Below, piece by piece: positions 18,576 to 22,513 of a stretch of DNA of 64,000 bases. This DNA comes from Confluentibacter lentus (GTDB taxonomy: Bacteria; Bacteroidota; Bacteroidia; Flavobacteriales; Flavobacteriaceae). The translations under genes were made by a program, and so were the position numbers. Position 1 is the first letter of the stretch; the number at the start of each line of letters is the position of its first letter. The DNA lies in contig NZ_NIHE01000001.1 in assembly GCF_002806995.1 (NCBI RefSeq), positions 806,001 through 870,000 of the forward strand, read 5' to 3'. A model generated the notes under the pieces. The model was not told the origin of the DNA, did not search any database, and saw nothing but the letters and a program-made list of their open reading frames with translations.

Positions 18576-18617
18576 AATTAAAATTTTAATTAATTAGTAT
18601 AGCCATTTAAAAAGATG

Positions 18618-20855
18618 TTACGCTTGCTCATTATGTTTTCCTATTAAAATAAAATCGAGATGTTTTTTAACTAAATCAGCATTTTTAACTTTTACAATAA
18701 CTTCGTCACCAAGTTGGTACATTATTTTTGTATGCCTTCCTATCATGGCATATTGTTGTTGGTCAAAAGCATATTGGTCATCTTTCATATCGCGAACACT
18801 AACCATACCTTCACATTTATTGGCTATAATTTCTACATAAATGCCCCAATCGGTCACACCGGAAATAACACCAATAAAGTTTTCATCTTTATGGTCTTGC
18901 ATGAATTTAATCTGCATATACTTAATAGAATCCCGTTCTGCTTTTGTAGCCAAATTTTCCATGCTACTTGAATGTTGACATTTTTCTTCATAAAGGGCTT
19001 CATTAACTGATTTTCCGCCATCTAAATAATGTTGCAACAAGCGATGTGACATCACATCAGGATACCGTCGAATTGGTGATGTAAAATGACTATAATAATC
19101 AAAAGCCAAACCATAATGTCCTATATTTTGTGTGGAGTATTCAGCTTTACTCATGCTTCTAATAGTAAGTGTATCTACTAAATTTTGTTCTTTTTTTCCA
19201 ACCACATCCTGTAATAAATAATTAAGGGATGCTGTGGTAGTTTTTTTATCTTTAAAATTGAGTTTATAACCAAATTTAGAGACAATACTTTGAAGATTGG
19301 CTAATTTACTTTCATCCGGTTCATCATGTATACGATATACAAATGTTTTTTTAACCGACTGTTTTCCAACATATTCTGATACTTTTCTATTAGCTAACAA
19401 CATAAACTCTTCAATAAGTTTATTAGCATCTTTACTTGATTTAAAGAACACACCAATTGGATTGGCGTTTTCATCCAAATCAAATTTAACTTCCACTTTA
19501 TCAAAGGAAATAGCACCAGCACTCATGCGTTTTTGACGCATTATTTTAGCTAAAGCATCCATTTTTATAATAGCTTCAGCAATATCTGGTGATGTATTAT
19601 ATGTTTCACCTGTTAGTGAAACTTCTTTTGGAATTGTGGTATTGATTGATGCGATTCCTGCCTTCGCAGGAATGACAAAACCAACATTATTCTCAATAAC
19701 TGCTTGAGCTTCTTCATACGCAAAACGAGCATCGCTATAAGTTACGGTCCTTCCAAACCATTCGTTTTTTATCTCCGCTTTATCATTCATTTGAAACACT
19801 GCCGAAAACGTAAATTTTTCCTCTTTTGGTCTTAATGAACACGCATTATTTGATAAAATTTCAGGTAACATAGGTACCACTCTATCTACTAAATATACCG
19901 AAGTGCCACGTTGATACGCTTCTTCATCTAAAATAGTGCCTTCTTTTACATAGTGAGAAACATCGGCAATATGAATGCCTATTTCATATAAACCATTGTC
20001 CAATACTTTAAAAGACAAGGCATCATCAAAATCCTTTGCATCCTTTGGATCTATCGTAAACGTTAAATCTTGGCGCATATCCCGTCGATTTGCTATCTCT
20101 ACAGTAGTAATTGAAGTATCTATATTATTAGCAAAATCTTCTACTTCTTGTGGAAATTCATAAGGCAAACCATATTCCGCTAAAATGGAATGTATTTCTG
20201 TATTATGATCCCCAGGTTTCCCAAGTACTTGAATCACTTTTCCATAGGGTGAATCGGCATTCTCTGGCCAATCTTCCAATTTTACCAAAACCTTATCACC
20301 ATCTTCGGCTTTAAAGGTTTTATTAATTGGAATAAAAATGTCTTTATACATTTTATTGCTATCTGCAATCACAAAAGCATAATTATTATGAAGTTGGATA
20401 ACGCCTACATACTCACTTTTTTCACGATTTATAACTTTAGTGATTTCACCTTCCATACGGCCTTGTTTACGACGTTTGTAAACATAGAATTCTACTTCAT
20501 CACCATGTAGTGCTTTATTAATATTGTTGGAGGCCACAAACACATCTTCATCAAAATCATCTGAAATAATATATCCTGTTCCTTTACCAGATAAATCTAA
20601 TTTACCTGTATGGTATTCTGCAGTAAAAATAGCTTTGTATTTGCCACGTTCTACTTCTTCAATTTCTTTTTTAGCGTGTAATTCGTGAAGTTTTTTTATA
20701 ATTTGATTTCTGCTACTGGCATCATCTACACCAAGTTTAGCCGCAATTTGTTTATAATTGTATGATTGATTTTTGTCTTTTTTTAAAATACTTAAAATCG
20801 TATTTGTGAGGTTGGCAATCCCTTTATTGGATTTTCCTTTTTTCTTTCTTGTCAT
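18618..20855 (-). CDS. rnr: Ribonuclease R with in-frame palindromic insertion
   Basis: 3'-to-5' exoribonuclease that degrades structured RNA. The 745 residues contain an N-terminal winged-helix region, cold-shock domains, the RNB catalytic domain with the metal-binding aspartates in FTIDPKDAKDFDDALSF (about 265-282) and FDYYSHFTSPIRRYPDV later on, and a C-terminal S1 domain (GVISGVTDWGIYVEI). Length is normal apart from an odd stretch at about 390-405, NVGFVIPAKAGIASINT, lying inside the RNB domain just before TIPKEVSLTGE. This is encoded by an 8-bp-stem palindrome of the widely dispersed VIPAKAGI type. The reading frame is intact. It heads the rnr-ybjQ-GIN group. Confidence 0.95.
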   Translation of the reverse strand: MTRKKKGKSNKGIANLTNTILSILKKDKNQSYNYKQIAAKLGVDDASSRNQIIKKLHELHAKKEIEEVERGKYKAIFTAEYHTGKLDLSGKGTGYIISDDFDEDVFVASNNINKALHGDEVEFYVYKRRKQGRMEGEITKVINREKSEYVGVIQLHNNYAFVIADSNKMYKDIFIPINKTFKAEDGDKVLVKLEDWPENADSPYGKVIQVLGKPGDHNTEIHSILAEYGLPYEFPQEVEDFANNIDTSITTVEIANRRDMRQDLTFTIDPKDAKDFDDALSFKVLDNGLYEIGIHIADVSHYVKEGTILDEEAYQRGTSVYLVDRVVPMLPEILSNNACSLRPKEEKFTFSAVFQMNDKAEIKNEWFGRTVTYSDARFAYEEAQAVIENNVGFVIPAKAGIASINTTIPKEVSLTGETYNTSPDIAEAIIKMDALAKIMRQKRMSAGAISFDKVEVKFDLDENANPIGVFFKSSKDANKLIEEFMLLANRKVSEYVGKQSVKKTFVYRIHDEPDESKLANLQSIVSKFGYKLNFKDKKTTTASLNYLLQDVVGKKEQNLVDTLTIRSMSKAEYSTQNIGHYGLAFDYYSHFTSPIRRYPDVMSHRLLQHYLDGGKSVNEALYEEKCQHSSSMENLATKAERDSIKYMQIKFMQDHKDENFIGVISGVTDWGIYVEIIANKCEGMVSVRDMKDDQYAFDQQQYAMIGRHTKIMYQLGDEVIVKVKNADLVKKHLDFILIGKHNEQA
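19654..19673. repeat. VIPAKAGI-type palindromic repeat inside rnr
   Basis: ATTCCTGC-CTTC-GCAGGAAT is a perfect 8-bp inverted repeat with a 4-nt loop. On the coding strand it gives the in-frame residues VIPAKAGI (394-401). The same peptide is a familiar mark of a dispersed palindromic repeat in many bacterial genomes. Confidence 0.8.
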
Positions 20856-20947
20856 TTAAATTTTGTAATCGTTTTCTTTTCCTAAGATACTGGAAATTCT
20901 TTTATCAAATAGCGTTTTAAAGGAGAAGTATTTGCTATTTATTGACA

Positions 20948-21043: not shown

Positions 21044-22513
21044 TTACTCTATAATAACTTTTTTTGCCGATTTTCCTTTATCTGTTACTATTTCAATAAA
21101 ATACATACCGCTTTTTAAATTGTCAGTATTTATTTTTAATTCTTTAGTTGAATATAAATATTGGCTTAAGCTATTATAAATATTAATTTGTTTTAATTCT
21201 AAACCTTGGTTTAAGTTAATATTTAATTCTTCTTTAACTGGGTTTGGATACATTGAAAAATAATCTTTATTAAAACTTTCGGTTGATAAAACTGCACTTA
21301 AATCATAAACACGAACATGACCTGAATCTAAGCCATTACCATCATTAAATCTTGAACCAATTGCAAGTTTAGAACCATTTGAAGATAATGATACACTATA
21401 ACCAAATTGATCAACAGCGGCTTCTCCATTTATATCTACTCCAATTTGATTCCATAATGTTCCATTCCATTTAAAAACACGAGCATGTCCTGCTAAAGAT
21501 CCATTATCTGAATTTCTAGTTGCTCCTATAGCTACTATTGTTCCATCTCCTGATATTGATACTCCAAAACCAGATGAATTATCAGCAGCTTTTCCATCTA
21601 TGTCTTGTCCTAGCTGTACCCATGAAGTTCCATTCCATTGATAAACCCTAACATGTCCTGCTCCTGCTCCATTCCCATCGTTTCCTGTTGCACCTATAGC
21701 TACTATATCACCATTACTAGATAGCGATAATCTAATTCCAGATAAATCATCTGCAGCCTCTCCATCTATATCTTGTCCTAACTGTACCCATGAAGTTCCA
21801 TTCCATTCATAAATCCTAGTATGCCCTGAAGCAGATCCATTCCCATTATTTCCATAAGCACCTATTGCTACTATTGAGCCATCAGAAGATAAAGAAATAC
21901 CCCAACCTGTTTGATCATTAGCAGCTTCTCCATCTATATCTTGTCCTAATTTAATCCATGTAGTTCCATTCCATTGATAAACCCTAGTATGTCCAGAGTT
22001 AGATCCATTCCCATCGTTATTAGGTGCAGCAATAGCTACTATTGTACCATCAGATGATAAAGATAAATTATATCCTGAATAATCATTAGCAGCTTCCCCA
22101 TCTATATCTTGTCCTAACTGTACCCATGAAGTTCCATTCCATTGATAAACCCTAACATGTCCAGAATCTACTCCATTTCCATTATTAAATGCTCCTCCTA
22201 TTGCTACTACATTACCATTACTAGATATTGAAATAGAAAAACCAAAAAAATCATCTACTGCTTCTCCATTTATATCTTGTCCTTTTTGAGACCATGAAGT
22301 TCCATTCCATTCATATATTCTTGCATGTCCTGAATTTGATCCATTTCCATCATTTCTAGGAGCACCAATAGCAACTATATTACTATCTGATGACATTGAT
22401 ATAGACCAACCTGATTGATCATCTACTGCTTCTCCATCTATATCTTGTCCTAATTTTGTTTGTGAATACATTAAAAAAGGAAGCATTAATAAAATAAGTA
22501 AAAGTTTTTTCAT
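21044..22513 (-). CDS. Seven-repeat beta-propeller protein with T9SS type A sorting domain
   Basis: Secreted or surface-anchored protein of unknown function. The 489 residues have a signal peptide (to MYSQ), then seven repeats of 56 residues, each of the form GQDIDGEAxxDxSG...IVAIGAxxNDGNG...GHxRVYxWNGTSW, which should fold as a seven-bladed propeller. The C-terminal 75 residues are a type A T9SS sorting domain (FSMYPNPVKEELNINL ... SGMYFIEIVTDKGKSAKKVIIE). The DNA repeats at 168 bp. NDGNGxxSGH resembles calcium-binding FG-GAP-like loops, but that is inference. Strong A/T bias at wobble positions compared with neighbours. Confidence 0.85.
   Translation of the reverse strand: MKKLLLILLMLPFLMYSQTKLGQDIDGEAVDDQSGWSISMSSDSNIVAIGAPRNDGNGSNSGHARIYEWNGTSWSQKGQDINGEAVDDFFGFSISISSNGNVVAIGGAFNNGNGVDSGHVRVYQWNGTSWVQLGQDIDGEAANDYSGYNLSLSSDGTIVAIAAPNNDGNGSNSGHTRVYQWNGTTWIKLGQDIDGEAANDQTGWGISLSSDGSIVAIGAYGNNGNGSASGHTRIYEWNGTSWVQLGQDIDGEAADDLSGIRLSLSSNGDIVAIGATGNDGNGAGAGHVRVYQWNGTSWVQLGQDIDGKAADNSSGFGVSISGDGTIVAIGATRNSDNGSLAGHARVFKWNGTLWNQIGVDINGEAAVDQFGYSVSLSSNGSKLAIGSRFNDGNGLDSGHVRVYDLSAVLSTESFNKDYFSMYPNPVKEELNINLNQGLELKQINIYNSLSQYLYSTKELKINTDNLKSGMYFIEIVTDKGKSAKKVIIE
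21300..22470 (-). repeat. Seven tandem 168-bp units in the propeller gene
   Basis: Near-identical blocks recur every 168 bp, for example CATGAAGTTCCATTCCATT at 21621 and CATGAAGTTCCATTCCATT-like sequence at 21789. Each unit encodes one 56-residue blade. Confidence 0.9.

Follow-up and report, generated by a model that had tools for sequence, protein, structure and literature searches.

A dispersed palindromic repeat read in frame in a variable loop of RNase R from Confluentibacter lentus and other Flavobacteriaceae

How did a short palindrome come to be read in frame inside the gene for RNase R, and does it belong to a repeat that is dispersed in the genome? The window analyzed here is a 64-kb stretch of DNA from Confluentibacter lentus (genome G000, 3.35 Mb in 32 contigs). 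Pfam matches to a 745-residue open reading frame of the window include RNB, CSD2, OB_RNB, and S1, and the solved chains nearest to the encoded protein (8cdu and 5xgu) are both RNase R. The palindrome ATTCCTGCGAAGGCAGGAAT consists of an 8-bp stem and a 4-nt loop (ATTCCTGC GAAG GCAGGAAT) and encodes IPAKAG with partial codons at both ends. Together with the TGTC tag it specifies residues 394–401, VIPAKAGI. The open reading frame and the sequence match bear out the initial annotation, in which a perfect palindrome with an 8-bp stem was placed in frame at these residues. A single match to ATTCCTGCGAAGGCAGGAAT is found in the window, where 0 are expected from 100 shuffles. The rnr reading frame is intact, and D269, D275, D277, and D278 are among the columns that are invariant over 30 relatives. 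Judged from the open frame, the VIPAKAGI segment is presumably part of RNase R as coded. The positions of the features are collected in Table 1. The ORF that adjoins rnr (21044–22513, minus strand) contains repeats of the type GQDIDGEAxDD...HVRVYQWNGTSW, and its C-terminal end has what we take to be a likeness to a secretion sorting domain.

Table 1. Features of the rnr locus in the window.
Feature	Position	Strand	Basis
rnr, RNase R, 745 codons, open	18618..20855	-	ORF list; Pfam; solved-chain matches
REP palindrome, family A, 8-bp stem and 4-nt loop	19654..19673	-	33 genome copies, control 0
TGTC tag, 5' of the palindrome (coding strand)	19674..19677	-	Column majorities in 30 aligned copies
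Variable loop, residues 389–407, 19 residues	19635..19691	-	Alignments with relatives; structure model
Block of residues 389–434, substitutions track loop type	19554..19691	-	Residue associations; synonymous linkage

The initial annotation held the palindrome to be dispersed, and the claim was upheld by a search of G000 for other copies. At two or fewer mismatches, 33 copies of the repeat (family A) were found, compared with 0 for the reversed control pattern. Six of the 33 copies, that of rnr included, are identical to ATTCCTGCGAAGGCAGGAAT. The conserved span of 30 aligned copies is about 25 bp and comprises the TGTC tag, the palindrome, and a C(C/T) tail, with no agreement beyond. The tag columns (−4 to −1) contain T in 26, G in 21, T in 22, and C in 21 of these copies. 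The tail columns contain C in 27 copies, followed by C in 15 or T in 12, and then A in 17. Three inverted pairs are present among the 33 listed copies, a count that leaves out diverged partners. Since only 8 of the 33 copies have a counterpart at the same place (≤1 mismatch) in G002, the closest genus mate, family A turns over within the genus. A copy was scored as inside an ORF when 40 codons on both sides lay in a stop-to-stop frame. By this rule, the rnr copy and one doubtful N-terminal case (L011) are inside an ORF among the 33 copies of G000, and 0 of 30 copies are so placed in G002. In genome G274, chosen because its rnr carries a repeat, family A is inside rnr alone among the 30 of 36 copies examined. 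Another palindrome family, of the ATTCCGCA...TGCGGAAT type, adjoins the family A copies at L003 and L004, downstream of the repeat.

Among known repeats, the rnr element most resembles the CGTC-1 REPs and not the long RPE-1. As described in the main text of Di Nocera et al. 2013 (PMC3733652), CGTC-1 REPs carry CGTC, TGTC, or CCTC at one end and have an 8-bp stem that opens with A/T pairs around a 4-nt loop; they are high in copy number, mostly intergenic, found in inverted pairs, and lack a dedicated transposase. The rnr copy has the TGTC tag and a stem and loop of this form, and family A, with its 33 copies, is likewise abundant and mostly intergenic. A CCA tail after the palindrome and frequent head-to-head dimers are also described there. 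The tail of the rnr copy is CGC. Intragenic REP copies are known from several species, among them copies in recB at about the same site in two Xanthomonas species, and rickettsial RPE-6 and RPE-4 are assigned to CGTC-1 and CGTC-4, respectively (PMC3733652, main text). That main text, additional files aside, names Bacteroidetes once and contains none of the terms 'flavobacter', 'rnase', 'ribonuclease', and 'exonuclease'; a family-wide recurrence in one loop, with a second unrelated repeat family, was not found described in it.

Two other known systems were compared. Palindromic elements of Rickettsia are also read in frame inside genes, according to passages of PMC10969869 and PMC3733652. As given in those passages, the rickettsial elements are about 150 bp long and occupy many genes in one genus, whereas the rnr repeats are about 25 bp long and occupy one loop in many genera. 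With about 25 conserved bp, family A also falls short of the ≥100 bp of RPE-1. GTAG REPs and REPINs, which go with RAYT transposases, resemble family A as short palindromes that occur singly or in inverted pairs. Their hallmark is a genomic Y1 transposase gene that adjoins the repeat; in contrast, family A has the tag TGTC, and no match to PF01797 (Y1_Tnp) was found in G000. Such a match is present in 15 of the 40 genomes searched (G000 was searched too), and no repeats were found beside the Y1_Tnp genes at 10 loci of relatives, one locus per genome. A RAYT was therefore rejected as the mobilizer of family A.

The RNase R of the window was compared with those of three genus mates that have an rnr match; a fourth, G001 (70% complete), gave no match. 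The protein of G002 is 94% identical overall to that of the window. The loop consists of 5 residues in G002, G003, and G004 (SKSNV, SKSNT, and SKSNI) and of 19 residues in G000. The segment is missing from all three genus mates, and the net excess in G000 is 14 residues, close to the 15 or so that had been estimated from the sequence. This excess is longer than the part encoded by the repeat. In G000 the repeat is preceded by NN and followed by INTT; both flanks are absent from the genus mates and are common to other long loops. In view of these shared flanks, the A copy of G000 may be part of a long-loop allele of older date and need not have entered the short loop recently. On the rnr tree, the G000 gene lies within three short-loop genes. 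If the genus had started with a long loop, with independent losses in G002, G003, and G004, this would agree with the presence of A in L151, the nearest gene on the tree beyond the genus, and with the long-type residues P423 and E427 that accompany the short loops of G002 and G004. Such a history is nonetheless unlikely, since at least two losses would be needed, each ending in the usual short form SKSN, compared with one gain toward G000. At sites where G003 and G004 agree, the window rnr has 24 unique amino acid changes, compared with 7 in G002; the changes of the window gene include a cluster at residues 236–253.

A total of 216 rnr genes was collected from 30 loci, 80 loci, and 106 genes picked from a wider list of matches. 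Removal of 14 duplicates left 202 distinct genes, a sample that leans to close relatives; rnr matches are present in 291 of 299 genomes. The loop has 9 or fewer residues in 138 of the genes and 11 or more in 64. Loop DNA was scored against family A, family B (GTCACGTTGAGCGCAGTCGAAACGTC, also in a shorter form), and family C (GTCACCTCGAGCGCAGTCGAGAGGTC, a variant of B) with a cutoff of ≥72% identity and a shuffle p < 0.01. Repeats were assigned to 28 loops (11 A, 13 B, and 4 C), where the B count includes L128, assigned by hand after its loop had been cut by the loop parser. No recognizable repeat is present in 36 of the 64 long loops, and decayed forms of the repeats fill the same loop in relatives. 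No match to A, B, or C at ≥72% is found outside the loop in the 202 genes. The best off-loop matches on the coding strand are 0.65 for A, 0.64 for B, and 0.60 for C, and the best on either strand is 0.70 (reverse strand, L253). The shorter B form, scored off the loop on the coding strand only, gave one strong match, in L128, and this match is itself in the loop. Perfect matches to A or B occur in the rnr loops of other genera. Among 39 chosen genomes, A is dispersed in 35 (controls 0) and B/C in 36 (controls 0–2).

The rnr loop holds repeats of two families across the Flavobacteriaceae and is a hotspot. General occurrence of the residues in RNase R of this family of bacteria, or a lack of other genomic copies, would have spoken against the initial annotation; family A is present at ≥72% in 11 of the 202 genes, and there are other copies in the genome. 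The parallel with rickettsial in-frame repeats that had been drawn for a flavobacterial rnr is supported, in that the repeat is multicopy and absent from close relatives; as a refinement, the G000 repeat is one state of a repeat-holding loop rather than an isolated case. In the first sample, of 30 relatives' loci, the one recognizable repeat in rnr is that of G000 itself, so the repeat rate depends on the clade sampled. Loop length and sequence vary across the family, as they would if a hypervariable loop merely resembled a repeat by chance. That reading is refuted by the copy counts (33 copies versus 0 for the control). The 20-nt identity with five other genomic copies, the perfect A and B matches in other genera, and an off-loop best of ≤0.65 (A, B, and C, coding strand, 202 genes) likewise leave it a negligible probability.

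The history of the loop was followed on a tree of 122 of the 202 genes, those with ≥74% identity, from which the loop columns were excluded. Branch support was taken as SH-aLRT from a short search, forced changes were counted at branches with support ≥95, and gains and losses were pooled. Loop length requires 26 changes on this tree, at least 16 of which are forced by well-supported branches. The minimum numbers of changes for A, B, and C are 8, 9, and 3, respectively. The scatter of A over the tree does not differ from that of shuffled labels (135 of 500 shuffles score as low). The sisters L212 and L213, of one genus, carry A and B, respectively, at the same spot. C is found in two reading frames (L194 versus L180) and B in more than one, with that of L128 differing. 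Several arrivals of repeats are therefore needed. All 11 A copies have one reading frame and one orientation; because of this and of the shared NN...INTT flanks, a common long allele is favored over independent insertions.

Residues next to the loop change with it. When residues are ranked by association with loop type, the top 25 all lie within residues 389–434, and a few of these positions belong to the loop. N390 is present in all 50 long-loop genes, compared with 3 of the 72 with short loops. The corresponding counts are 3 of 50 and 60 of 72 for Q423 and 0 of 50 and 57 of 72 for D427. P423 tracks loop type in independent pairs, with a median p of 0.004 (range 0.0005–0.07). Greater synonymous similarity in pairs of the same type is confined to the windows that start at 397, 409, and 421. 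This signal persists at conserved residues, mainly through Y419 and L414, and 0 of 429 contiguous control sets are as high.

These observations bear on the possibility that the long-loop allele arose once, anciently, that long and short forms were exchanged by homologous recombination, and that the differences among A, B, and C go back to genomic REPs that later replaced the insert or acted through gene conversion. This account overlaps with the reading preferred below and differs from it by making insertion into the loop rare. It has a substantial chance of being correct, somewhat short of even. The common flanks, the linked residues 423 and 427, the confined synonymous likeness, and the single frame of the A copies all speak for it, although codon context could produce part of the synonymous signal. 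Against it, C lies directly in a short loop without NN...INTT flanks in L129, and the repeats of L128 and L180 are in other frames. In recently switched pairs the amino acid divergence of the block is 0.12–0.30, compared with 0.05–0.10 elsewhere, but no switched pair has a significantly raised synonymous divergence in the block, a comparison of low power. Nor was a donor for the G000 block seen; the best local match, L062, is at 0.82, compared with 0.81 for the whole gene of that pair. Pairwise synonymous divergence gives no support to the idea that the loop came recently from another genus, whereas the all-pairs synonymous linkage points the opposite way. Some unswitched pairs also have raised amino acid divergence in the block (G002–G004, 0.18 versus 0.06; L152–L063, 0.16 versus 0.06), so part of the divergence is faster change of the block's own. 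The linked block fits adjustment of neighboring residues, exchange of an old allele, or both.

The insert was placed on the structure with an AlphaFold2 model of the window RNase R, which is of moderate quality (pLDDT 68, pTM 0.44). In this model it lies in a poorly ordered loop between helices 380–389 and 423–445. Structure comparison gave RNase R and Rrp44/Dis3-type relatives and added nothing on the insert. The repeat segment of rnr folds strongly as RNA (z −3.8), and diverged A copies keep their pairing in 87.5% of cells, compared with 81.4% in shuffles. In Escherichia coli, RNase R contributes to the decay of RNA that contains REPs. Taken together, these points would suit a hairpin in rnr mRNA that acts as a regulatory element, for example one through which decay of this mRNA responds to the level of RNase R. 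Such a role is very improbable: the insert is absent from 138 of the 202 genes, long loops without a recognizable repeat are numerous (the 36 above), the covariation score of the A copies is similar after a slide of one column, and no Rfam match is found over 18600–20900. The case for selection on the hairpin at the RNA level is weak, and such selection is not claimed.

The preferred reading, to which a probability of roughly 0.75 is assigned, is that a dispersed REP-type palindrome (family A, CGTC-1-like) is read in frame in a loop of RNase R that is exposed and flexible, and that this loop recurrently holds two REP families. REPs would reach the rnr loop by their usual process of dispersal, and long and short loop alleles have probably also been swapped between species via short-tract homologous recombination. 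The inserts may persist since the loop joins two helices and would tolerate extra residues. After insertion, residues 389–434 would adjust, and the inserts would later decay or give way to other REPs. The insert needs no function, and the hairpin in rnr mRNA is probably a by-product. A bolder proposal is that the loop diversifies actively, as a module that is partly exchanged horizontally and draws its coding material from REPs, and that alternative loops are selected for altered contact of RNase R with its substrates or the ribosome. This is quite unlikely; if true, dispersed noncoding repeats would continually supply a core enzyme with functional protein segments.

REPs read in frame are already known and have mostly been reported as scattered oddities. 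The literature searched, in which most subscription journals are not included, yielded neither a recurrent two-family site in rnr nor any published account of the rnr insertion site. The rnr loop can be compared over about 200 relatives in its empty, A-, B-, and C-filled, and decayed states, several of which occur inside single genera. One spot in a core RNA-degrading enzyme is repeatedly remodeled by genome repeats, and the series offers a natural means to ask how noncoding repeats become protein and how neighboring residues adjust. It also bears on the crossing of genus borders by short alleles and on the spread of REPs without a known transposase.

The gene mnmE was used as a control in 80 genomes of the rnr set, with one scanning rule for both genes; the genome rankings for rnr and mnmE both started from insert-carrying queries. 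Repeats are present in 19 of 80 rnr genes and in 5 of the 78 genomes that have mnmE. Every one of the 19 rnr repeats falls in the RNase R loop, and the 5 in mnmE share a single site in the MnmE G domain, with B/C-type sequence in L317 (G286), L492 (G150), L470 (G318), L455 (G221), and L452 (G164). Thus, rnr is not the only gene in which repeats recur at a single site, but it is the stronger of the two. An earlier control took 30 loci each of mnmE and polA, the query gene included, from relatives of G286, a genome set other than that used for rnr. It gave two mnmE repeats at one site, a weak reverse-strand match elsewhere in mnmE (L335), and one polA repeat. A B/C-type repeat was seen in mnmE of L325 (G012) in this control.

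By the 40-codon rule given above, repeats of the B/C type are also found inside other genes. In G286, likewise chosen for the repeat in its rnr, 5 copies are inside genes among the 30 examined of 32; the genes are rnr, mnmE, polA, and those for a lipoyl acyltransferase and an aminotransferase-fold enzyme. In G000, one B/C copy out of 10 lies within a gene, read as mfd. This family B repeat is in frame (VMLSAVETSQ) in L380:1-2511 (minus strand) on contig C1 at 662889–662904, outside the window. The gene is probably mfd, as judged by its UvrB-interaction, CarD/TRCF RID, and DEAD helicase domains. The DNA polymerase I of G286 (L291:568-3015) has an in-frame C-type repeat between its nuclease domains. 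The lipoyl acyltransferase of G286 (L296:763-2403) has an in-frame C-type repeat in its linker and a second, B-like stretch, DVTLSAVEESQ.
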